Shown one piece after another: positions 29,703 to 51,133 of a stretch of 60,581 nucleotides of DNA (positions are counted from its first letter, which is position 1; each line of letters begins with the position of its first letter). Below the pieces are notes generated by a model. It had not been told where the DNA came from and made no database searches. It was given only the letters and a program-made list of their open reading frames with translations. Source of the DNA: Verrucomicrobiota bacterium. GTDB lineage: Bacteria; Verrucomicrobiota; Verrucomicrobiia; Chthoniobacterales; SZAS-18. The stretch lies in contig JANXRG010000100.1 of the NCBI GenBank assembly GCA_025353105.1, positions 1 through 60,581 of the forward strand. Direction: 5' to 3'. The translations under genes were made by a program, and so were the position numbers.

Positions 29703-32216
29703 CTACCGGGCGTGGGCGGCCTTCTCGGTCAGGATGTGGAGGAGTTGCTCCCCGCTCATGCGCTCGGCCGCCTCGTGCGGACAGGCATAAACGCAGCGCG
29801 GCATCGGGCTCGCCCGGTCGCCCTCGGCGTCACACAGGTCGCACGTCGATGCCTTGGGCTGCGCGACCTTCATTTTGTGGCTCGGGCGTTCCGGGTCGAT
29901 CACCTCGATCCGCCGGCGCTCGTTCGGGACAATGTTGATGTTGCCATACGGGCAATTTGCCGCGCACAGACCGCAGCCAATGCAGTGATCCTCAATCACG
30001 ATTTGCAGATGCCGTCCGCGATGAATCGCATCGACCGGGCATCCGGCCATGCAATACGGATCCTTGCACGAGCGGCACGCCGTCCCAATCAGGAAATTCT
30101 CCAGCCGCAGGCCGTCGCGGAGCATGCGCGGAATGGGGACGCCATGTGAATCCGAACCGTGCTGTTCGATGCAGGCATTCGTGCAGGCGTCGCATCGCGT
30201 GCACTTTTCCATGTCGATGACGAGCAGGGCCTGGCCCTCGTAAAGGCCTTGGTCAACGTACTTCTGCACCAAGGCGGTCGGGGCGTTGTCGCTTTGGAGT
30301 GCGGCCAGCGACTGCTCGACGAGGCGACGGCGTAAGACGGGGAAATCGCGCACCATCTGGAGAAAATCGCCGCGGCTGATGCGGGCCAGTTCCAAGTTGT
30401 CCAGGGCCGAGCACGTGGCAGTCCGGAATCCGGTCGCAATCGCGGCGGTCAAGTCGCCGTTGGTTGCGCGGTCCAGCGCTGACCCGATGGCCATGTCCAC
30501 CTCCGCTGCGCCCTTGCGGATGTCCTGCGGGGAGATCGCAAGCAATCCGATTTCGCCCAGGATGGCACCGGGCGCGCGCGAAACCAGGGTGGGGGCATTA
30601 CCGAAACGCTGCACGGCGACCTGGACGTGGCCAAGCCGCACGAGATACATGTCGCGGGCGGGATCGCCCTGGCGAAAGAGCGTTTGGCCACGGCTGACGC
30701 GCACGAACTTGAGCCGCGGCCGAAGGAATTCGACAATGTGTTTGTATTGATCCAGCGCGATGCCCCTGAACAATTCCGAGCTTTGCAAGGCGAGGTCGAG
30801 CGCGCGCTCGCGATAAATGGTCTCAAATTTCTGCCGCAGGCTGGGCAGACGCATGAGGCGATCGAGCACGTTTCGCCGCAACTCCCAGATTTCGCCCGCC
30901 TCCAGCGCCGTCACGTCGGCCGACCGCGGCAATCCGCTGAGGCACGCCATCTCGCCCACGATGAGATCCGCCGCCGTCTGCTCGAAGCGCAAGCTGGGCT
31001 TTTCGGCGGGCGGAAAGAGGCCGGCGAGACCCTTGCGGGGTGGTGGCGTGGGCGGGAAGACCGCCACCTCGAGTTTTCCGCTCTTGATGATGAAGGCCGT
31101 GTTGCCCGCCTCACCGTGACGGCAAAGCTCCTCGCCCTTCTTCACGCGACGCCGCACGACGAGGCCCTGCTGCCAGAGCAGAAACTTGGGCGGTACGCCG
31201 GCGAAAAGTGGATCGGCGATCAATTCCTTGGCGGGCATTACCTCGGCGTGGCGATTGCCGGTGGGAAGCTTGACCTGTGCGACCGGCTTGAAGGTGATCG
31301 CGCTGGTCGGGCAGGACACCATGCACTCGCCGCAACGTACGCAGCTCGAGTCGCCCATGCGATCATTCAGATCGAACCCGATGCCCGCGTTGGCACCCTT
31401 GCCGGTGCGGCCGATGACGCGGTTTTCCTTGACGTCGTTGCACGCGCGGATGCAGCGCTCACAGACGATGCAGGCGCTGTGGTCGACGAGGAAGACCGGG
31501 GACGAGGCGTCCAGCTTGCGGCGGCCCACATTGGCCGGCGCGGCCGGGGCCGGATTCGACATGACATCGACGCGGAAGCGCGCGGCATCCGCGCCGCAAC
31601 GCGTCGTCATTTGTCCAAGTTCGTTGAAGGGCGCGAGTTCCTCGGCCGGCGCGGGCGCGGGCGCGGGCTTCAAGTGATCGGCGGCGAGCAATTCTGTCAC
31701 GATCTTCACCGCTCCGCGCACGCGATCGCCGTCCGCTCCCGGATCGGCCATGGTGAAGACCTCCATCCCGTCCTTCACCGGGTGCTGGCAGGCAGGCATA
31801 AGTTTTCTTTCGGCCGCACGCGCGCCGCGCTTCTGGCCGTAGATTTGCACCATGCACATGCGGCAGACCGCCACGGGCGTCATGTGCGGTTGATGGCAGA
31901 GTATCGGAATCGGAATCTTCGCTTCGTCGCCCGGCTGCTTCACGATCAACTTCACCGCCGCGTCGTAAATGGTCGTGTACTTCGGCGTGGTCCGCCCATC
32001 GACGTCGAGCTCGATGTTCCCGTTCGCGTCCTTCAACGGCTCCGCCAGCGGCACGGTGACCGACTGCCCGTCGATCTGCAGTGTGACCATTTTCTCATAG
32101 TCATTCTCCGTCGGAGCGTCGACGCGGACGAGCTCGCCATTGATGTCGCGGCTGAACAACCCCTCGTCGTCATCGCGAATGAAGAGATTTTGTACGGGTT
32201 CTTGATCGGTCGGCAT
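29703..32216 (-). CDS. NuoG-like Fe-S / double cyclic-nucleotide-binding / four-cluster ferredoxin fusion protein
   Basis: 837 residues with an unusual domain order. An N-terminal [2Fe-2S] domain has Cys107, 118, 121 and 143. The next element, normally the His-Cys3 cluster of NuoG/HydA, keeps only His181 in ELLAADH and has no cysteines after it. Two [4Fe-4S] motifs follow (Cys249/252/255/259 and 292/295/298/302). Then come two CNB domains: the first (about 350-460) has an intact phosphate cassette GEMACL-x3-PRSA; the second (about 480-625) has its cassette split by some 36 residues between GEIGLL and RTATCSAL. The C-terminus is a DmsB/HybA-like ferredoxin with four complete [4Fe-4S] motifs from Cys672 to Cys812. 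It pairs with the NuoEF fusion 16 nt upstream. Soluble; electron acceptor unknown. Confidence 0.88.
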   Translation of the reverse strand: MPTDQEPVQNLFIRDDDEGLFSRDINGELVRVDAPTENDYEKMVTLQIDGQSVTVPLAEPLKDANGNIELDVDGRTTPKYTTIYDAAVKLIVKQPGDEAKIPIPILCHQPHMTPVAVCRMCMVQIYGQKRGARAAERKLMPACQHPVKDGMEVFTMADPGADGDRVRGAVKIVTELLAADHLKPAPAPAPAEELAPFNELGQMTTRCGADAARFRVDVMSNPAPAAPANVGRRKLDASSPVFLVDHSACIVCERCIRACNDVKENRVIGRTGKGANAGIGFDLNDRMGDSSCVRCGECMVSCPTSAITFKPVAQVKLPTGNRHAEVMPAKELIADPLFAGVPPKFLLWQQGLVVRRRVKKGEELCRHGEAGNTAFIIKSGKLEVAVFPPTPPPRKGLAGLFPPAEKPSLRFEQTAADLIVGEMACLSGLPRSADVTALEAGEIWELRRNVLDRLMRLPSLRQKFETIYRERALDLALQSSELFRGIALDQYKHIVEFLRPRLKFVRVSRGQTLFRQGDPARDMYLVRLGHVQVAVQRFGNAPTLVSRAPGAILGEIGLLAISPQDIRKGAAEVDMAIGSALDRATNGDLTAAIATGFRTATCSALDNLELARISRGDFLQMVRDFPVLRRRLVEQSLAALQSDNAPTALVQKYVDQGLYEGQALLVIDMEKCTRCDACTNACIEQHGSDSHGVPIPRMLRDGLRLENFLIGTACRSCKDPYCMAGCPVDAIHRGRHLQIVIEDHCIGCGLCAANCPYGNINIVPNERRRIEVIDPERPSHKMKVAQPKASTCDLCDAEGDRASPMPRCVYACPHEAAERMSGEQLLHILTEKAAHAR

Positions 32217-32232
32217 GGCAGGCGTCCTTTTC

Positions 32233-34275
32233 CTAAGTTCCGTTGTGTTTTCCCGGACCGGACAAATGTTTCGCGAGGTCGGCGGGGAAATAATTCATGA
32301 CCGTGCGGAGCGGGACCGGAACGGAACGGCCCAGCCCACAGATCGAGGCGAGCTCGATCGCCTTGCTCATATCCTTCACCAGCGGCACGATTTCGTCCTT
32401 CCACCGCCCGGCATCGATCTGGCCGCCCATGAGATGCGTCCCGAGGGAAGCCATCTTTTGTGAGCCGGTGCGGCAAGGCACGCATTTGCCGCACGACTCG
32501 TTGCGGAAAAACTCCATCGAGTTGACCGCTTGCTCCGCCATGTCCCGGTCGTCGCCGTAGACCACGAGCCCCGCGCCCAACGCCTGGGTCGGACTGAGGC
32601 CGCGGAAGACGTTGAGCTCGAGTTCGAGGTCCAGCAGATCCATCTCGGTGGCGGCAGGATCGAATCCCCGCCGGCCCGCGACCGCCAGCCAGGTCTTGTT
32701 CTTCACGTGGTCGCGAGGCAGTCCGCCGGTCGCGGTAAGCTTGGCCGGCAGGAATCCGCCCGATGGGCCGGACGGGGCAAACGCCTTGAGTTTTCGGTTC
32801 CCCGACATGCCCTGGCAATACTGCTCGCCGAAGAGGAGTTCGCGCAAAGTCATGCCCATCGGAACCTCGTATACCCCCGGCCGTTTAACATCGCCGGAAA
32901 CGGAGAAGAATCGCCCGCCCTTCCAGGTGTTCGTGCCAAGCGCAGCACAGGCCTGGCCTCCGTTTACGATGATGAAAGGAACCCACGCATAGGTCTCGAC
33001 GTTACTCACGAGCGTCGGAAGATCGATCAGGCCGTTCGTCTCGAGCTTGGGCGGCATGTTTCGTGGTTCGCCACGGTGGTCGGACATCGCCTCGATCAGC
33101 GCGCTCTGTTCCCCGCAGATGTAACCGCCCGGACTGATAAACACCGACATATGGAACGACCGCCCCAGCATGGAGGCGTTTTCGCCGCAATAACCGAGCT
33201 TCTCGGCCCGGCGAATCTCCTCGCGGCAGGCTTCGATCTGCTCCGGATATTCGTGACGGATATAAATGAATCCTTGGGTCGCCTCCGTGATCATTCCGGC
33301 CAAAATCACGCCCTCGACGATGAGGTGCGGCGTGCGCAGCAAGAGCTCCCGATCCTTGAAGGTCGCTGGTTCGCTCTCGTCGCCGTTGACCACAATGAAG
33401 GCGCGATCGTCGCTCTCGCGCCGGCGCGCGCCGCGCACCGCCTCCCGCACGTCACGCCATTTCTGAATGGCCGGAATGCCGGCTCCGCCCATGCCACGCA
33501 GGTCCGCCTCTGTGAATTCCTTCAGCAGGCTCTCGGTCCAGTTGCCGAGCGTCGGGCCCTTCGCCCAGTCGGAATCCGTCTGCCACGCGCGCACGGCCGC
33601 GACAAGCTCTGGATCGCCGGAGAAATCGCCGCGCAACTGGCCGGCGGCGGCATGCCGGAAGCGTTCGAGGCGCGCCGGCGACCAGCCCGGCATTGTCATC
33701 AGGATTTGCTCCGCCGCGGCAATCGAGGCATCGCGGGCGGCGACGGCCTTCCTCACCCCGGCGTAGTCGCAGGGATTCGCGCCGTAGGGATTGGCCTTCC
33801 AGTGGGCGCCGGAATAAGGCAAATCGATGTCCTTGTCATCCGGCGGCGGGGCGTTGTTCAGGCACGCCTCGACGATCTGCTTCAACTGCGCCGCGGTACG
33901 GCCGAGGTAATAGCGTTCGTGGTGCGAGCCGAGCATCGCAACGAAGGTCGCGGGTTGGCGATCGCAACGGCCGAGGCAGGACACGCCCTCGACCGCGAAA
34001 TTTTCGCCGGCGAGCGATTCCAGCTCCTTCATGATTGGAACCGCGCCCGCCACGTGACACGCCATGTCGCGGCAGACTCTGAGCGTGACGCGAGGTGGCT
34101 TCGCGAAGCGGAAGAACGGGAAGAAACTCGCGACAGCCTGCAGGCGATGCAGGGGAACGCCGGCGTCCTTGGCCCACCGCACCATGGCCTCCCGGTTCAG
34201 GTAGCCAAATTCATCCTGGATATGGTGCAACGCAGGAATAAGGGCGGCGGCATAGAGAGGAGGCGTGGAACTCAT
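32233..34275 (-). CDS. NuoE-NuoF fusion, NADH-dehydrogenase-like flavo-iron-sulfur protein
   Basis: 680 residues. The first 140 are the thioredoxin-like NuoE domain with [2Fe-2S] ligands Cys68, 73, 100 and 104. The rest is NuoF/HydB: FMN loop GMGGAGIP at 261-268, NADH-site VNGDESEPATFKDRE, GGYICGEQSALIEAM, an SLBB region, and the [4Fe-4S] ligands Cys595, 598, 601 and 646. Some site residues differ from the consensus (GRGGAGFP, GEETAL). No other complex I, hydrogenase or formate dehydrogenase gene is nearby. With the next gene it would oxidise or reduce NAD(H) and pass electrons through the Fe-S chain. Divergent from the hydroxyproline cluster. Confidence 0.92.
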   Translation of the reverse strand: MSSTPPLYAAALIPALHHIQDEFGYLNREAMVRWAKDAGVPLHRLQAVASFFPFFRFAKPPRVTLRVCRDMACHVAGAVPIMKELESLAGENFAVEGVSCLGRCDRQPATFVAMLGSHHERYYLGRTAAQLKQIVEACLNNAPPPDDKDIDLPYSGAHWKANPYGANPCDYAGVRKAVAARDASIAAAEQILMTMPGWSPARLERFRHAAAGQLRGDFSGDPELVAAVRAWQTDSDWAKGPTLGNWTESLLKEFTEADLRGMGGAGIPAIQKWRDVREAVRGARRRESDDRAFIVVNGDESEPATFKDRELLLRTPHLIVEGVILAGMITEATQGFIYIRHEYPEQIEACREEIRRAEKLGYCGENASMLGRSFHMSVFISPGGYICGEQSALIEAMSDHRGEPRNMPPKLETNGLIDLPTLVSNVETYAWVPFIIVNGGQACAALGTNTWKGGRFFSVSGDVKRPGVYEVPMGMTLRELLFGEQYCQGMSGNRKLKAFAPSGPSGGFLPAKLTATGGLPRDHVKNKTWLAVAGRRGFDPAATEMDLLDLELELNVFRGLSPTQALGAGLVVYGDDRDMAEQAVNSMEFFRNESCGKCVPCRTGSQKMASLGTHLMGGQIDAGRWKDEIVPLVKDMSKAIELASICGLGRSVPVPLRTVMNYFPADLAKHLSGPGKHNGT

Positions 34276-34354
34276 CGGGAATGGTCGCTTCGGAAATTCT
34301 ATGGGCCGCCGGGGATGCAGTCTGGTTCAAGCGCGTCGCGCCGACCTGGCAGAG

Positions 34355-34379
34355 AAACGACGGATGCCAAATGTCGTTT
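34355..34379. promoter_or_regulatory. Inverted repeat AAACGAC-N11-GTCGTTT in divergent promoter region
   Basis: Seven-base perfect arms (34355-34361 and 34373-34379), centre to centre 18 nt, in the 292-bp gap between the redox module and the hydroxyproline genes. The spacing suits a dimeric regulator on one face of DNA. No other gene-like feature was seen in that gap (34276-34567). Confidence 0.4.
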
Positions 34380-34567
34380 TTCCCCGGACCGCGCAGCGAG
34401 AAAACTTTGCCGGAGCCGCGCCCGACTCGTCAATGCAATTTCACACGTCCGCGGGGGCGGAAAGCCGCCCCGCGATCGGCCGCGGGCGCAGAGAGGTAAT
34501 TCCGGGGCAATGTTTCCGGGTGGGTTCGACTTGGCGATTTCCCCCAAAGCGTGGAAGCTGCCAGCCT

Positions 34568-35521
34568 ATGTCCGCCGTCGCCCAGCGTTTGCACGTGATC
34601 GATTCCCACACCGGCGGCGAGCCGACGCGGGTGGTCGTGGCGGGTGGGCCGGATCTCGGGAACGGCCCGTGGGAGGAACGCGTGGTCCGCTTCCGCGAAA
34701 AATTCGACCGCTACCGCTCGGCGGTCGTCCACGAACCGCGCGGATCCGACCCGGTCGTCGGCGCGCTGCTGTGCCCGCCGCACCGGTCCGATTGCGACTT
34801 CGGCGTCATTTATTTCAACAATTCCGGTTATCTCGGAATGTGCGGTCATGGCACCATCGGCTTGGTCGCCACGCTTGCGCATCTCGGCCGCTTCGCCCCC
34901 GGGGTCTGCCGGATCGACACGCCCGTCGGGGCGGTCGACGCGCAACTTTCAGCCCAAGGTGACATTTCGATCACCAACGTCGCGAGCTATCGCCACGCGA
35001 AGGACGTGACCGTGCAGGTGCCGGGCATCGGCGTGGTGCGCGGCGACGTCGCTTACGGTGGCAACTGGTTCTATCTGATCGAAACACACGGACTCGGGAT
35101 CGATCGGGCGAATCTTTCGGCGTTGGCCGACTACACCAATCGCGTCCGGCAGGCCGTGAATGAGCAGGGGCATCCCGAGGTGGATCACGTGGAGCTCTTC
35201 GCGTCATCTCCGTCGCCGGGGGCGCAAAGCCGCAACTATGTGCTGTGCCCTGGAGGGGCACACGATCGTTCTCCCTGCGGCACCGGCACGAGCGCCAAGC
35301 TCGCGTGCCTGGCGGCCGACGGAAAACTCGGCGAAGGCGAACCATGGGTGCAGGAAAGCATCATCGGCAGCCGTTTCACCGGTCGTTACCGCTGGCTCGA
35401 TCGCGCGAAAGGGCTGATTGCGCCGACCATCACGGGCACCGCCCACGTGAATGCCGAGTCCGTTTTGATTCTCGATCCCGGCGACCCATTTTGTTGGGGG
35501 ATCCGCGACGCGGCCGAATAA
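34568..35521 (+). CDS. 4-hydroxyproline epimerase (proline racemase family)
   Basis: First step of trans-4-hydroxy-L-proline breakdown: epimerises it to cis-4-hydroxy-D-proline. 317 residues. The two catalytic cysteines are Cys92 (GMCGHGTIG) and Cys237 (DRSPCGTGTSAK). Both being cysteines points to a racemase or epimerase and against the dehydratase branch, where the first is Ser or Thr. The next three genes encode the remaining steps, which favours hydroxyproline over proline. ATG 34568 begins the family-like part (HVIDSHTGGEPTRV); a longer open frame to 34265 is not supported. Confidence 0.93.
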   Translation: MSAVAQRLHVIDSHTGGEPTRVVVAGGPDLGNGPWEERVVRFREKFDRYRSAVVHEPRGSDPVVGALLCPPHRSDCDFGVIYFNNSGYLGMCGHGTIGLVATLAHLGRFAPGVCRIDTPVGAVDAQLSAQGDISITNVASYRHAKDVTVQVPGIGVVRGDVAYGGNWFYLIETHGLGIDRANLSALADYTNRVRQAVNEQGHPEVDHVELFASSPSPGAQSRNYVLCPGGAHDRSPCGTGTSAKLACLAADGKLGEGEPWVQESIIGSRFTGRYRWLDRAKGLIAPTITGTAHVNAESVLILDPGDPFCWGIRDAAE

Positions 35522-35527
35522 ATTTTA

Positions 35528-36787
35528 ATGACGAAACAAAAACACGTGGTGGTTTGCGGCGGGGGCGTCATCGGACTGTGTTGCGCGTATTACCTGGCGC
35601 GCGAGGGGCATCGCGTCACGGTCGTCGAGCGCGACGCTGAGGATCACGATTCGTGCGCGAACGGCAGCGCGGGATATGTCTCACCCAGCCATGTCATTCC
35701 GCTCGCGGCGCCGGGCATGGTCGCGATGGGGATCAAGTGGATGCTTAGTCCGCGCAGCCCGTTCTACATCAAGCCGCGGCTGGATGCGGATCTGGTGCGC
35801 TGGGGCTGGCTCTTCATGCGGTCGTGCACGAAGCAGCACGTCGAGCGCGCCGCGCCGGTGCTGCGCGATCTCTGCCTCGCGAGCCGGACGCTCTTCGAGG
35901 AGTTCGCCGATCTCACGCGGAACGAATTCCTGCTCGAGAAACAGGGCCTGCTCATGCTTTGCAAAACGGAGCAGGCGCTGGAGCACGAAGACGGCCTCAT
36001 CCGTCTGGCCAATGGACTGGGCGTCGAGGCGAAAGTCTTCAATGCCGCCGAGACGGCGGCGTTCGATGGCGGCGTGCGCATGGACATCGCCGGTTCCGTC
36101 TTTTTTCCGATCGATTGCCATCTCTCTCCGCGGCGGTTCATGACTTCGCTGACGAAGTTGCTGCACGCCGCCGGCGTGACCTTCCGCTGGGGCACGAGCG
36201 TCACCGGCTGGCGTGCGGACGGAACTTGTCTTGCGGCGGTGCAGACGGACGGGGGCGAAATTGAAGCGAAGGAATTCGTGCTCGCGGGCGGATCGTGGTC
36301 GCCCTCCATGCTCGCGGGTCTCGGCGTGCGCCTTCCGATGCAGGCCGGGAAGGGCTACAGCCTGACGTTGGAAAACCCGCGGTTCCGGCCGCGCGTGCCG
36401 GCCATTCTCACCGAGGCGCGCACCGCCGTGACGCCGATTGGAAGGACGCTGCGGTTCGGTGGGACGATGGAACTCAGCGGCATCAACGATGTCGTGCGCC
36501 CCGAACGCGTCCGCCAGATCATGGAGTCGGTGCCGAAGTACTATCCCGATTTTGGCCCGGAGGATTTCGCCGGCGTGAAGCCTTGGTTCGGCCTGCGACC
36601 GGTGTCGCCGGATGGCATGCCGTACATCGGACGGTTCCGCCAGCATCCAAATCTCCTAGCCGCGTCCGGGCACGCGATGCTCGGCGTCACCCTCGCGCCG
36701 ATCACCGGTCGTCTCATCGCCGAGTTGGTCGACGGCCGCGAGCCATCCATCGCGCTGGAAGCGGTGGCGCCGGATCGATTTGGTTGA
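35528..36787 (+). CDS. FAD-dependent D-hydroxyproline (D-amino acid) dehydrogenase
   Basis: 419-residue DAO-family flavoprotein. The FAD Rossmann motif is VVVCGGGVIGLCCAYYLAR at the N-terminus. NGSAGYVSPSHVIPLAAPG and the C-terminal GLRPVSPDGMPYIG then GHAMLGVTLAPITGRL are typical of DadA-like enzymes. In this cluster it should oxidise cis-4-hydroxy-D-proline to 1-pyrroline-4-hydroxy-2-carboxylate. It starts 6 nt after the epimerase stop, so the two are co-transcribed. Electrons probably go to a quinone or a carrier. Confidence 0.92.
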   Translation: MTKQKHVVVCGGGVIGLCCAYYLAREGHRVTVVERDAEDHDSCANGSAGYVSPSHVIPLAAPGMVAMGIKWMLSPRSPFYIKPRLDADLVRWGWLFMRSCTKQHVERAAPVLRDLCLASRTLFEEFADLTRNEFLLEKQGLLMLCKTEQALEHEDGLIRLANGLGVEAKVFNAAETAAFDGGVRMDIAGSVFFPIDCHLSPRRFMTSLTKLLHAAGVTFRWGTSVTGWRADGTCLAAVQTDGGEIEAKEFVLAGGSWSPSMLAGLGVRLPMQAGKGYSLTLENPRFRPRVPAILTEARTAVTPIGRTLRFGGTMELSGINDVVRPERVRQIMESVPKYYPDFGPEDFAGVKPWFGLRPVSPDGMPYIGRFRQHPNLLAASGHAMLGVTLAPITGRLIAELVDGREPSIALEAVAPDRFG

Positions 36788-36866
36788 TTCTTGACCACGC
36801 TCCGCGGTCCGCGACACCGGTTTTTCATCGTATTCGCGGCGCAGTGGGCTAAATACATTTCTCCCC

Positions 36867-37760
36867 ATGAATTGGACCGGCGTCATTCCTGCCATCACGA
36901 CCAACTTCCGCCCCCGCGGCGCGATCGATCATCCGGCACTCGCGAAGCATTGCCACTGGATGATCGACAGCGGCTGCACCGGCATCGTTTGCGGTGGATC
37001 CCTCGGCGAGGCCGCGACACTCAGCTTCGACGAGAAGTGCGCCGTGATTGCGACCTGCATTAAGGCCGTCGGCGACCGCGCGCCCGTCGTCAACGGCATC
37101 TCCGCGCTCAGCACCGCCGAGGCCGTTGCGCTCGCGAAGGCTTCGGCCAAAGCGGGCTGTCAGGGCCTGATGGTCCTGCCGCCGTACGTGTACAGCTCGG
37201 ACTGGCGCGAGATGAAGGCCCACGTCGACGCGATCATCAAGTCGACGCGGCTTTCTTGCATGCTTTACAACAATCCGCCAGCCTACAAAACGGACTACAC
37301 GCCGGCGCAAGTCGTCGAACTCGCGACCGAGCACCGCAACCTTCACGCCGTGAAGGAATCAAGCGGCGACGTCCGGCGCATCACGGCGATCAAGGCGCTG
37401 CTCGGCGACCGACTGACCATTTTTGTTGGCATGGACGACGCCATCGTGGAGGGCATCTACGTGGGCGCGACCGGATGGATTGCGGGGCTCGTGAATGCCT
37501 TCCCTCGCGAATCGGTTGCGCTGTTTGAGGCAGCGATGCGGGGCGACAAGGCGCGCGCGGCAAAGCTTTACGCGTGGTTCCTGCCGATGCTCCGACTCGA
37601 TACGGTCCCGAAATTTGTGCAGTACATCAAATGGATCCAGGCCGCCGTCGGTCGCGGAACCACCGTCGTACGCTTGCCGCGCCTGCCGCTGGTGGGTGAC
37701 GAGCTAGCCCTCGTGAAGCGCGTGCTGGCTGAAGCGCGCGCGAGCCGGCCCAAGCTCTAA
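36867..37760 (+). CDS. DapA-family 1-pyrroline-4-hydroxy-2-carboxylate deaminase
   Basis: 297-residue class I aldolase-fold protein. The Schiff-base lysine is Lys163 (HAVKESSGDVR) and the conserved tyrosine is Tyr134 (CMLYNNPPAYK). GSLGEAATLS near residue 45 replaces the GTTGE substrate loop of true DapA. Placed between the dehydrogenase and the semialdehyde dehydrogenase, it should deaminate and dehydrate the pyrroline to 2,5-dioxopentanoate. Lysine biosynthesis DapA is the alternative, but the context argues against it. Confidence 0.9.
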   Translation: MNWTGVIPAITTNFRPRGAIDHPALAKHCHWMIDSGCTGIVCGGSLGEAATLSFDEKCAVIATCIKAVGDRAPVVNGISALSTAEAVALAKASAKAGCQGLMVLPPYVYSSDWREMKAHVDAIIKSTRLSCMLYNNPPAYKTDYTPAQVVELATEHRNLHAVKESSGDVRRITAIKALLGDRLTIFVGMDDAIVEGIYVGATGWIAGLVNAFPRESVALFEAAMRGDKARAAKLYAWFLPMLRLDTVPKFVQYIKWIQAAVGRGTTVVRLPRLPLVGDELALVKRVLAEARASRPKL

Positions 37761-37773
37761 CCACGCGCCTCCG

Positions 37774-39357
37774 GTGGACATACAAGGCTTCTCCCTGATT
37801 GGTTTTGGTCGCGGCGCGGCGGGCGGGGCAACCTGGCAGGCGACAAATCCCGCGGCGGGCGAAAAGCTCTCACCGGTTTTTCATTCGGCGAGCTCCGCCG
37901 AATTGGACGGCGCCGCACGCCTTGCGTCGGATGCGGCGCCGGCGCTTGCCCAATCCAGCGGGGCGGATCGCGGCAAACTTTTGCGCGCGGTTGCGTCGCG
38001 ACTCGAAGGCGCCGCTGCGGAACTTGCGGCGCGCGGGAACGCGGAGACGGCGCTGCCGCTCGCGCGGTGCAACGGTGAGATCGCGCGCACCGTGGGCCAG
38101 CTCCGCCTGTTTGCCGGCGTCGCCGAGACCGGCGACTGGTGCGATGCGCGGATCGAAACCGCGCAGCCCGATCGCAAGCCGGTGCCGAAGCCAGATCATC
38201 GCTCCATGTTCCGCGCCATCGGGCCCGTGGTGGTCTTTGGCGCGAGCAATTTCCCCTTCGCGTTCTCCACCGCCGGTGGCGACACCGCTTCCGCGCTCGC
38301 GGCCGGCAATCCCGTCGTCGTAAAAGCCCATCCGGCGCATCCCGGAACCGCGGAACTGGTGGGCCGATGCGTCGTGGACGCCGTGCGCGAAACCGGATTT
38401 CCGGAAGGAACTTTCTCCGTCCTGTTCGATGTCGGTTACGAAATCGGGGCGGCATTGGTCGGTCATCCGGCGATCAAGGCGGTGGGATTCACCGGGTCGC
38501 GGAAGGGCGGCCTGACGTTGATGGAGATCGCCGCAAAACGGCCCGAGCCCATTCCGGTCTTTGCCGAAATGAGCTCGGTAAATCCCGTGTTCGTGATGCC
38601 GCAGGCGTTGGCGGCGCGTTCCGCCACCATTGCGGGCGGCCTGCTCCAGTCCGTCACGATGGGCGTCGGGCAATTCTGCACGAATCCCGGATTAGTCGTC
38701 CTCGAGGCGTCGCCGGGCGCGACCGAATTTATCGCGCGTCTCGCCGATGGAATGGGTGCAGCTGCGGCCGAGCCGATGCTAACGTCCGGCATTCAAGCGG
38801 CTTATGCGCGAGGCGTCGCCGAGCGGTCCGCGGAACCCGGCGTGCGGGTCATTGCCCGTGGGACAAAGGGCGGACCCGGTTGCGCGGAGACGGCGCTATT
38901 TGCCACCGATGCCGCGACGTTTCTTGGCCGCCCCGCTCTCGCGGAAGAAATCTTCGGACCGGCCACCCTCGTCGTCGAATGCCGCGATCGCGCAGAGATG
39001 CATGCGGTCGCCCGGCATTTGAAGGGCAGTCTCACCGCGACGATTCAAGCTGACTCCGGGGACGACGGGGCCGAGTTGGCCGCCAGGCTCGCGGAGCGTG
39101 CCGGGCGTGTGCTGTTCGGCGGCTACCCGACCGGGGTGGAGGTGAGTCAGGCGATGGTGCATGGGGGGCCGTTTCCGGCGACGAGCGACGCGCGCACGAC
39201 CTCGGTCGGCAGCCGCGCGATTCATCGGTTCGCCCGCTTAATTTGTTACCAGGGATTTCCAGACGCGCTGCTGCCGCCGGAACTCCAGAACTCGAACCCC
39301 GGGGGTCTATTCCGGCTGGTCGATGGCCAGTTCAGTCGCGGGCCGGTAATTCCATAG
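37774..39357 (+). CDS. 2,5-dioxovalerate (alpha-ketoglutaric semialdehyde) dehydrogenase
   Basis: 527-residue aldehyde dehydrogenase of the type that ends hydroxyproline and pentose/glucarate pathways, giving 2-oxoglutarate. Catalytic Cys302 is in GVGQFCTNPGL and the general base Glu265 in VFAEMSSVNPVFV. NAD(P)-site GASNFPFAFSTAGGDTASAL is characteristic of this subfamily. It starts with GTG 37774, 13 nt after the deaminase stop. It completes the four-step route. A 12-bp hairpin follows about 90 nt downstream. Confidence 0.93.
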   Translation: MDIQGFSLIGFGRGAAGGATWQATNPAAGEKLSPVFHSASSAELDGAARLASDAAPALAQSSGADRGKLLRAVASRLEGAAAELAARGNAETALPLARCNGEIARTVGQLRLFAGVAETGDWCDARIETAQPDRKPVPKPDHRSMFRAIGPVVVFGASNFPFAFSTAGGDTASALAAGNPVVVKAHPAHPGTAELVGRCVVDAVRETGFPEGTFSVLFDVGYEIGAALVGHPAIKAVGFTGSRKGGLTLMEIAAKRPEPIPVFAEMSSVNPVFVMPQALAARSATIAGGLLQSVTMGVGQFCTNPGLVVLEASPGATEFIARLADGMGAAAAEPMLTSGIQAAYARGVAERSAEPGVRVIARGTKGGPGCAETALFATDAATFLGRPALAEEIFGPATLVVECRDRAEMHAVARHLKGSLTATIQADSGDDGAELAARLAERAGRVLFGGYPTGVEVSQAMVHGGPFPATSDARTTSVGSRAIHRFARLICYQGFPDALLPPELQNSNPGGLFRLVDGQFSRGPVIP

Positions 39358-48744: not shown

Positions 48745-49506
48745 ATGCACCGCTTCTACATCGCTCCCCCGGCGTGGAATCCGGCGGCGTTACAGCTTGA
48801 GGATGCGGAGGCACATCACGCGTTGAGCGTGCTGCGGCTCAAGGCGGGCGACCGCGTGGTGGTGTTCGATGGTCGCGGGCAGGAGGCGACCGCGGAGATC
48901 ACGGCCGTGGGATCAAAAAAGGCGGTCTCGCTACGGATCGTGCACGCGGCGAAGACGCCGCCGCTCCCGTGCCGAATTGTTCTCGCGCAAGCCGTGCCGA
49001 AGGGGAAAAACATGGATCTCATCATCCAAAAAGCGACGGAGTTGGGCGCCGCGGAAATTGCACCATTGCTTTCGGACCGCACCGTCGTGCGGATCGAGGA
49101 TGAGCGCGGCGAGGCGGAATCGAAGCGGGAGAAATGGCAGTCGGTCGCCATCGAAGCTGCCAAGCAATGCGGCCAGAACTGGCTGCCAACGGTCGGGCTG
49201 CCGATGTCACCGAAGGAATTTCTCGCGGAACGCGCCAAAGAATTCGATCTTCTCTGGATCGCGTCGTTGCAACCCGACGCGAAACACCCGCGTGCCTGGC
49301 TGTCGGAGTATGCATCGGGAGCTCGGCCCAAGTCGGCGTTGATCCTGGTCGGTCCAGAGGGCGACTTTACGCCCGCAGAGATTGCGATGGCCAAGGCCGC
49401 CGGCTGCCGGCCGATTTCGCTCGGACCAATCGTCCTTCGGACCGAGACCGCCGCGATTTACTGCCTGAGCGTGCTGTCGTACGAGCTTTTAAGCCATCCA
49501 TTGTGA
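48745..49506 (+). CDS. rsmE: 16S rRNA (uracil-1498-N3)-methyltransferase RsmE
   Basis: 253 residues. An N-terminal PUA-like part (MHRFYIAPPAWNP ... EAHHALSVLRLKAGD) precedes the SPOUT knot with KGKNMDLIIQKATELGAAEI, LILVGPEGDFTPAE and SLGPIVLRTETAAIY, all family signatures. It methylates U1498 of 16S rRNA late in 30S assembly. ATG 48745 gives the standard start. The dnaJ-rsmE order is seen in other bacteria. Confidence 0.95.
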   Translation: MHRFYIAPPAWNPAALQLEDAEAHHALSVLRLKAGDRVVVFDGRGQEATAEITAVGSKKAVSLRIVHAAKTPPLPCRIVLAQAVPKGKNMDLIIQKATELGAAEIAPLLSDRTVVRIEDERGEAESKREKWQSVAIEAAKQCGQNWLPTVGLPMSPKEFLAERAKEFDLLWIASLQPDAKHPRAWLSEYASGARPKSALILVGPEGDFTPAEIAMAKAAGCRPISLGPIVLRTETAAIYCLSVLSYELLSHPL

Positions 49507-49519
49507 GCTTCCAAGGATG

Positions 49520-49644
49520 GGGGAGCGCACGCGTCTCGCGGGCTGCGTTCGGCGTCTCGCCCAATGCTTGAGTTGCGCAGGCAGCATGGAAAGAAGCATT
49601 CCGGCGGGACGCCGGAACGGACACGCGGGAGGCACGCGCTCCCC
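49520..49644. repeat. Imperfect palindromic element of about 125 bp
   Basis: Outer arms GGGGAGCGC (49520-49528) and GCGCTCCCC (49636-49644) are inverted. Inside is a perfect hairpin TTCCGGCG-GGA-CGCCGGAA (49599-49617). It lies between the convergent rsmE and the secreted hypothetical gene. No reading frame or transposase is present. It may be a REP-like or MITE-like unit or act as a bidirectional terminator. Confidence 0.6.
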
Positions 49645-49653
49645 AGCGCCCAG

Positions 49654-50223
49654 CTAGCGGATCAGATCTACGATGCGCCCGTCGGGCAGCTTGATCGGGC
49701 CGTAGAGCATGGGCTCCTCGCGCTTCATCTGGCGGAGCATCTCACGCGACTTCGCGAAATGGTCGTCCAGCCCGGATCGATCCCGCTTCTCCCAATAACC
49801 GCCATCGTCGTCCACTCTCAGCGATTTAAGCAGGGGCTTCAGCTGGTCGAACAACTTAATGATTGCGACGTGGATATCCGCGCCGGCGAATTGGGTTTTA
49901 ACGTAATTCTGGAAGAAAAGATCGTCGCCGAATTGCAGCCAGACCGGCTCGCACAGTTCCGCTGGATAAAAAACGATCCCGGTAAGTTTCCCTTCATACG
50001 GTTCGTTTTTTTCGGCCCCGACGCGCACGTGCTTTCGGTGCTCGGCGGACGCATCTTCGACCTTCCAGCCGTATTGTTTGGCGAACGATCGCGCGGTCGC
50101 AACGACCGCGGCGACGTCGGAGGCGGAGCGGACCGTGCCCTCAAAGTGAATCGTCACCCCGGCGTGCATCGAGGGCGCCAGCAGAAGCGCACCGATCGTT
50201 GCGACGACGGCTCGAAGACTCAT
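49654..50223 (-). CDS. Secreted hypothetical protein
   Basis: 189 residues with a signal peptide MSLRAVVATIGALLLAPSMHA. I do not recognise the mature domain. It has VTIHFEGTVRSASDVAAVVA at the start and GIVFYPAELCEPVWLQFGDD in the middle, predicted mixed alpha/beta, and ends with ELPDG-like LPDGRIVDLIR. ATG 50223 is chosen for the signal peptide. It abuts the CPBP protease gene (1 nt gap), so the pair is probably one operon. Confidence 0.78.
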   Translation of the reverse strand: MSLRAVVATIGALLLAPSMHAGVTIHFEGTVRSASDVAAVVATARSFAKQYGWKVEDASAEHRKHVRVGAEKNEPYEGKLTGIVFYPAELCEPVWLQFGDDLFFQNYVKTQFAGADIHVAIIKLFDQLKPLLKSLRVDDDGGYWEKRDRSGLDDHFAKSREMLRQMKREEPMLYGPIKLPDGRIVDLIR

Positions 50224-50224
50224 T

Positions 50225-51133
50225 TTATGCCCTTGGAGTCGGCGTTTCGCGGGGCCGAAACCAAAACAGGATCGCCGCCGTGAGGGCCACCGTGACCAAG
50301 GGTCCCAAGCCAATCAGCAGATTCTGTCCGACCCACGGCAACAGGTCAGCCCGGGTGGGTGCGGTGAGCGCGCTGAACGTCTTCAGGCCGAACACCCAGC
50401 CGGCGTGCAGGCCAATCGCAGACCAAAGCGAATGCGTCGCGCGCGTGATCAGGCCCAGCGTGAGTCCGACCACGAAAAGCGTGAGGAAACCGCCGAGGAG
50501 TAGCCACGGGTCAGAGAATTGCCAGAAAACCTTCGGCAACAACTCGAAGCCGGACAGCCAGTGGATCGATCCAAGTGACGCGAGGAGCGGCGTGGTATTT
50601 TCCGGCGGCTTGAGGAAATGGACGATCGCAAAAAGTGCCGCGACAAAATTCTGCGCGGGCCACGCGCCGGCGGTGCGGAGGACCACGCCAAGGAGCGCGC
50701 CGCGGAAGAGGGACTCCTCAAGAATCGACACTGCCGCAGCCGACACGGCCGCATTTGGCAGATCGGTCCATTTCAAACCCTGCCGCCAATCGTAAAGTCC
50801 TGCGACGAGCAACACCGCGCCGAGCGCGAACAACAATCCGCATGCGAGCGCAAAGCCGAGGCCGAGATCGCGTCGCCACGCCGGGTTCGGCGATAGGCCG
50901 AGGTCGGACCTGCTCCGCACGTGGAGCGACTTCGCCAGCGGCCAGAGCAGGGCGACGGCGGCGACGAGCATCGCGCGGTTAAAATATCGCTGGAAGGTCA
51001 CGCGCTGCAGAAACTCGAGCGACGGCATCGCGCCGCCCAGCCAGATACCGCCCCAGTAAAGCCACGGTGCGAGCAGCGCACCGAGTCCAAGCACGGCGAC
51101 GAAGTACAGGGCGATGCGGCGGATGTCGGACAC
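50225..51133 (-). CDS. CPBP family intramembrane glutamic endopeptidase
   Basis: About 302 residues with eight or so hydrophobic segments. Catalytic motif EESLFRGALLG carries the double Glu and Arg; the later motifs are FAIVHFLK and IGLHAGWVF with the two histidines. This is the Rce1/CAAX-protease-like family, which cleaves within the membrane; bacterial substrates are mostly unknown. GTG 51133 is chosen because the long upstream frame to 51892 runs through repeats and another gene's antisense. Confidence 0.9.
   Translation of the reverse strand: MSDIRRIALYFVAVLGLGALLAPWLYWGGIWLGGAMPSLEFLQRVTFQRYFNRAMLVAAVALLWPLAKSLHVRSRSDLGLSPNPAWRRDLGLGFALACGLLFALGAVLLVAGLYDWRQGLKWTDLPNAAVSAAAVSILEESLFRGALLGVVLRTAGAWPAQNFVAALFAIVHFLKPPENTTPLLASLGSIHWLSGFELLPKVFWQFSDPWLLLGGFLTLFVVGLTLGLITRATHSLWSAIGLHAGWVFGLKTFSALTAPTRADLLPWVGQNLLIGLGPLVTVALTAAILFWFRPRETPTPRA

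Follow-up and report, generated by a model that had tools for sequence, protein, structure and literature searches.

A NuoEF-NuoG gene pair with tandem cyclic-nucleotide-binding domains as the putative cytoplasmic arm of a membrane electron-transfer system in Verrucomicrobia and Planctomycetota

Complex I (NuoEFG/Nqo1-3), FdsABG and HoxEFU resemble the gene pair considered here in joining a NuoE-NuoF diaphorase to a head with one [2Fe-2S] and two [4Fe-4S] clusters. Ferredoxins of the HycB type serve Mo/W enzymes, and cAMP is known to control bacterial respiration mainly via transcription or protein modification. We know of no previous example of an electron conduit that is switched within the protein by a cyclic nucleotide, and the roles of these nucleotides in the Verrucomicrobia and Planctomycetota treated below are, to our knowledge, little explored. 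The electron-bifurcating BfuABC/HydABC family has NuoF- and HydA-like subunits related to the pair, and the text of its description, which does not contain the terms ‘cyclic’ or ‘CNB’, defines BfuB by a C-terminal ferredoxin-type 4Fe-4S domain, IPR017896 (PMC9304861). Multihaem cytochromes c, four-cluster Fe-S proteins and membrane subunits are combined in ACIII, Qrc, Nhc and Nrf (PMC8076601), and the same three kinds of component recur in the system described here.

The window, a stretch of 60,581 nucleotides from a genome of the Chthoniobacterales (G000), contains two minus-strand genes separated by a 16-base gap that includes a purine-rich stretch, AGGAAAAGGA. An earlier note, made from the letters alone, had read positions 29703-34275 as a NuoEF fusion next to an Fe-S protein with two cyclic-nucleotide-binding (CNB) domains; the open reading frames lie exactly there, and Pfam agrees. 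The upstream gene (32233..34275) encodes P0002, a NuoE-NuoF fusion of 680 aa that is predicted from Pfam, loop motifs and Fe-S cysteines to be an NAD(P)H:FMN diaphorase subunit. The downstream gene (29703..32216) encodes P0001 (837 aa), in which, according to Pfam and orthologues, a NuoG-type head is followed by two CNB domains and a four-cluster ferredoxin. We refer to this architecture as the long form.

The FMN loop, the NADH loop and the N3 [4Fe-4S] cysteines expected of a NuoF/HoxF-type diaphorase are found in P0002. The NuoE-like thioredoxin-fold [2Fe-2S] domain (33865..34251, minus strand; C68, C73, C100, C104; Pfam 2Fe-2S_thioredx, residues 9-137, and alignment) precedes a NuoF core predicted to bind FMN/NAD(H) (32956..33540, minus strand; Complex1_51K, residues 255-433, E 5e-36, and loop motifs), an SLBB match and an N3-type [4Fe-4S] domain with invariant C595, C598, C601 and C646 (32266..32529, minus strand; NADH_4Fe-4S, residues 583-670, E 6e-20). 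In the alignment the Fe-S cysteines and the majority of the FMN/NADH loop residues are intact, with ‘GMGGAG’ and ‘NGDESEP’ in the NuoF loops and ‘GEQ’ where ‘GEE’ is usual. The GEQ variant (window 33058-33138, P0002 residues 380-406) occurs in nearly all long forms. This position presumably affects the exclusion of NADPH, so that use of NADPH is possible; literature searches on GEE to GEQ and NADPH preference returned nothing.

The head of P0001 contains a NuoG/HydA-type [2Fe-2S] domain (31737..32093, minus strand; Fer2_4, residues 42-155, E 4e-7) with invariant C107, C118, C121 and C143, and two NuoG/HydA-type [4Fe-4S] clusters are predicted from Pfam (Fer4 dicluster, residues ~244-304) and from the invariant cysteines C249/252/255/259 and C292/295/298/302 (31284..31487, minus strand). 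At the opposite end lies a HycB/HydN-type ferredoxin domain for four [4Fe-4S] clusters (29727..30233, minus strand; Fer4 families, matches at residues ~670-816), which is HydN/DmsB/DsrO-like in searches and has 16 invariant cysteines. The cysteines of head and ferredoxin are invariant across ten aligned orthologues, which bears out the NuoG/HydA-like head and the four-cluster ferredoxin that the earlier note had proposed. Among the domain families it named, Fer4_11 stays below the cut-off, even though the HycB-type cysteines it pointed to are all present, and NADH-G_4Fe-4S_3 is absent. Three cysteines of the latter's His/Cys3 cluster are missing from 15/15 aligned verrucomicrobial long forms and present in the planctomycete L155 and L159; the third NuoG cluster has been lost from P0001. 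No signal peptide was seen in P0001, and judged by its sequence this Fe-S subunit is cytoplasmic. A near-invariant acidic motif, RDDDEGLFSRD, occurs at the N-terminus of the long form (window 32140-32180, P0001 residues ~13-26), and planctomycete long forms have a similar DDEELF.RD. This motif is possibly a docking site.

The CNB region matches cNMP_binding in three stretches (E 3e-28; 98 bits against a cut-off of 27.5), and P0001 has both a profile score above the cut-off and a cassette of the form G-E ... R-[STA]-A. CNB domain 1 (30846..31205, minus strand; cNMP_binding, model and Foldseek) carries its phosphate-binding cassette, IVGEMACLSGLPRSADV, at residues 419-435. CNB domain 2 (30342..30767, minus strand; sequence, alignment and model) is marked by GEIGLL ... 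RTATCSAL. The GE and R of the first cassette, whose Glu and Arg the earlier note had singled out as kept, are conserved in 37/37 aligned proteins from two phyla; in the second cassette E and R are each found in 36/37, the Arg being lost in the orthologue L009. By alignment, then, both domains retain cAMP-type phosphate-binding residues nearly everywhere. A helical insert is predicted within the CNB2 cassette of the long form (window 30435-30533) and is missing from the short forms introduced below. The top Foldseek matches of the predicted CNB region are the tandem CNB domains of PKA regulatory subunits and PKG. Sequence profiles and predicted fold together dispel the concern that these regions might fail profile searches. 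The AlphaFold model of P0001 has a mean pLDDT of 53, with mostly 60-86 in the CNB region, and it is too weak elsewhere for cluster distances to be judged.

Next to the pair, at 34265-39357 on the plus strand, Pfam identifies proline racemase-, D-amino-acid-oxidase- and DHDPS-family genes and an aldehyde dehydrogenase gene in a row. Running divergently from the NuoEF gene, they resemble an operon for the catabolism of trans-4-hydroxyproline. A functional tie between the pair and this hydroxyproline-type flank is unsupported, as orthologous loci have other neighbors.

A scan of genome contigs recovered nine orthologous loci of the same architecture from further verrucomicrobial assemblies, with 61-74% full-length identity, together with a distant planctomycete relative. 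In a search of 197 genomes of the Chthoniobacterales with a ten-sequence profile, the long form was recovered from 23, and in four of these a contig end truncates it. The same architecture in these other assemblies excludes an assembly fusion, which the earlier note had raised as a refutation. It had also asked whether the two genes always co-occur: the NuoEF gene is immediately upstream at orthologous loci wherever the contig reaches that far, and the outer neighbors of the pair vary. The same profile also found a short form, a CNB-CNB-four-cluster ferredoxin of usually ~560-700 aa that lacks the NuoG head and whose gene is followed by two others, one for a membrane protein (mem) and one for a decahaem cytochrome c (MHC).

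Mem is a protein of ~300 aa with five predicted helices, two of which contain invariant His pairs 14 residues apart (H99/H113 and H280/H294; A3). Searches of Pfam, NCBIfam and PDB sequences gave no match to it, and no solved cytochrome b homologous to it was found; from the His pattern it is probably a dihaem-b membrane protein. Ten CxxCH motifs occur in MHC, and its planctomycete relatives have nine to fourteen; its similarity to ActA, HmcA and QrcA is weak. In the window there are no haem genes near the pair, in line with the earlier note's remark that no membrane gene is adjacent. That remark does not extend to other loci: mem and MHC adjoin the long-form pair at L012 (Ca. Udaeobacter), L062, L066, L069, L070 (where the contig stops within MHC) and L127-L129. 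G000 itself encodes both on a contig apart from the pair (G000:C63:48240-49166 and 49179-50660). What had been taken for a whole enzyme therefore appears to be its cytoplasmic part only.

Within the order, a CNB-ferredoxin of either form occurs in 48/197 genomes, mem in 47/197 and both in 46/197 (Fisher p = 2.5e-41, a nominal value that ignores relatedness). Mem is kept in 22 of the 23 long-form genomes and is unlinked to the pair in 13, including the window's own; the sole exception, G539, has a contig that ends in a decahaem gene. Long and short forms are nearly mutually exclusive, with an additional short CNB-ferredoxin fragment in G543. Since long-form genomes otherwise yielded no short form, no other CNB-ferredoxin partner was found for their mem-MHC, a claim that is weaker outside G000, as the second-copy check covered four scored candidates per genome. 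An odd CNB-ferredoxin of 895 aa with long unrelated inserts is encoded at L056 (7484-10171), with the mem-MHC genes on another contig (L126).

Relatives of mem occur in 48/294 sampled Planctomycetota. At 17 of the 20 planctomycete loci examined, mem-MHC lies near a CNB-ferredoxin, and six of the 17 include the NADH pair (L155, L159, L164, L169, L171 and L173); G631 encodes a further NuoEF and NuoG-CNB head apart from its mem-MHC. Distribution across the Chthoniobacterales is patchy (a Ca. Udaeobacter genome is one of the carriers), and the system is also present in sampled Planctomycetota. In the CNB-ferredoxin tree, one clade consists of the verrucomicrobial long forms and the other of all short forms plus the head-bearing L159 and L171. 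This tree needs two changes of head state, and an independent double gain of the head in the planctomycete ‘hybrids’ is not established; a single clade of head-bearing forms is not rejected (AU test, p = 0.27). The NuoF tree unites the module sequences with L183 and L184 in a single supported group; as L184 is a further module copy, the group contains one orphan. Some planctomycete short forms (L158, L165, L166 and L167) have an N-terminal extension, which is an FHA domain in L165 (Pfam) and looks similar in the others; it is a possible second signal input. Extra cytochromes with four, five or nine haems (C554-like, LVIVD-repeat) occur by the planctomycete system at L155 (10222-18086) and L156 (11060-16601), with more such genes at L164 (10427-11977) and L173 (8976-12552). 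These are candidate periplasmic partners.

The comparative genomics supports the four-gene composition of the system well. In our reading, four genes encode a membrane conduit, of which the pair is the cytoplasmic arm; the conduit would carry electrons from NADH via Fe-S clusters and haem b to periplasmic haem c under cyclic-nucleotide gating. We assign this reading a probability of about 0.5. Complex formation, occupancy of haem and cluster sites, cyclic-nucleotide binding, gating and the direction of flow are parts of it that we infer. NADH (or NADPH) would donate electrons to the FMN of the NuoEF subunit, from which they would pass through the NuoG-type head clusters to the four-cluster ferredoxin at the opposite end of the protein, on to the five-helix dihaem-b protein and finally to the membrane-anchored decahaem cytochrome c on the periplasmic side; the parts suggest the order NADH, FMN, N3, head clusters, ferredoxin clusters, haem b, haem c. 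As the two CNB domains sit between two cluster groups of one chain, a signaling molecule may switch electron flow directly. On binding cAMP or cGMP from class III cyclases, the CNB domains would move in the manner of PKA regulatory subunits or CRP. This movement would connect or disconnect head and ferredoxin electrically, or would establish or release docking to the membrane subunit. The head-less form suggests that CNB-ferredoxin, haem b and haem c are the core and that the NADH module is one input. We put forward only tentatively, and with somewhat less confidence, that this is a respiratory transmembrane conduit whose conductivity is switched within the protein by a cyclic nucleotide from cyclases encoded alongside.

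In 9/25 genomes the system has class III cyclase genes no more than 10 kb away, whereas 1.6 such genomes would be expected if the cyclase density of each genome is taken into account. Counted by lineage, the figure is 6/15 against 1.0 expected, with an approximate p of 1e-4 that is a guide rather than a planned test, since the 10-kb limit and the lineage boundaries were set after the loci had been inspected. The neighboring cyclases comprise CHASE2-cyclases (two diverged groups), a TPR-cyclase, a cyclase-kinase and two planctomycete cyclases that have no other Pfam domain. No cyclase was found near the system in 9/15 lineages. G000 has 15 class III cyclases, none of them near the pair or the mem-MHC locus. 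Five class III cyclase domains, most with TPR-type regions, occur within 19 kb at G000:C119:26385-45237 (L125). The second-messenger control of an NAD-linked enzyme proposed in the earlier note is partly supported by these cyclase neighborhoods and by the cassette residues of the 37 proteins.

Alternatively, the same membrane system might contain CNB domains that are structural, or that bind a nucleoside, a dinucleotide or a protein, and not be gated by cAMP or cGMP. Numerous domains of the CNB fold do not bind cyclic nucleotides, and T. cruzi PKA-R structures with bound nucleosides are among the Foldseek matches; the helical insert in CNB2, the Arg missing from one long-form protein and the lack of an adjacent cyclase in most lineages point the same way. 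This seems somewhat unlikely to us given that the cassette Glu and Arg persist in two phyla (in all proteins for CNB1 and all but one for CNB2) and that cyclases of four architectures are enriched by the system in six lineages. Electrons could also run the other way, with periplasmic cytochromes or quinol feeding the complex and NAD+ being reduced at the NuoEF end, which would amount to reverse electron transfer or to the exploitation of an outside donor. The parts permit either direction, and the additional multihaem cytochromes in planctomycete loci would suit such a flow, but no donor-side enzyme is conserved with the system in Verrucomicrobia, and G000 also encodes heme-copper oxidases and another NuoF (C59), which fit an aerobe with ordinary NADH oxidation without settling the direction. 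We regard reverse flow as improbable.

Least probable of all, in our judgment, is that in genomes where the genes are unlinked, including the window's, the pair acts as a soluble NADH-dependent reductase of some protein partner, independently of the haem genes. The pair does stand alone in the window, with neighbors that vary by locus, and its ferredoxin domain is HycB/HydN-like; yet mem is retained in all but one of the long-form genomes whether linked or not, and the neighbors include no conserved alternative partner. A soluble two-gene enzyme was accordingly demoted as an explanation, haem genes being linked to the pair at other loci and present in G000. The gated four-gene conduit remains our preferred reading. 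If it is correct, a receptor domain within the electron path would give fast and direct control of electron flow, and there is a real chance that this is the first case of direct gating of an electron conduit by a second messenger. The system in any case brings in a membrane protein family, probably of dihaem b type, unmatched in Pfam, NCBIfam and the PDB. The titles and abstracts searched contain no description of this electron-transfer system, carried by Verrucomicrobia and Planctomycetes of soil, and it is apparently undescribed; as the searches reached few subscription journals, this is not proof of novelty.

The pair is distinct from complex I, hydrogenase and the Bfu enzyme: for each of them, a search for one defining component gave a negative result. 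For complex I, the Mo-like domain of NuoG is absent from P0001, and neither the window nor the orthologous loci showed NuoH/L/M/N next to the pair. Matches to group A [FeFe] hydrogenases span only the head (~96-311) and part of the ferredoxin, and there is no H-cluster domain. P0002 has no Fer4 match in Pfam, and so lacks the C-terminal domain of a Bfu bifurcating enzyme by the definition of BfuB (PMC9304861). Unlike NuoEFG, FdsABG and HoxEFU, the system has a CNB-CNB-ferredoxin instead of a hydrogenase, Mo or quinone module, has lost the His/Cys3 ligands and carries GEQ rather than GEE. Its haem part would function much as ACIII, Qrc or Nrf do, but it differs from them in that the place of the cofactor-free NrfD is taken by the dihaem-b-like, database-unmatched mem with its two conserved His pairs, and in that the Fe-S subunit is predicted to be cytoplasmic, is fused to CNB domains and, in the long form, is joined to an NADH module. 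CRP and the mycobacterial acetyltransferase Pat, both among the best CNB matches, share the canonical cassette; they regulate transcription or acetylation, whereas here an electron-transfer subunit contains the CNB domains. Their tandem arrangement recurs in the PKA regulatory subunits and PKG of eukaryotes, but in the system described here there is no kinase and the domains that flank the CNB pair are redox domains.
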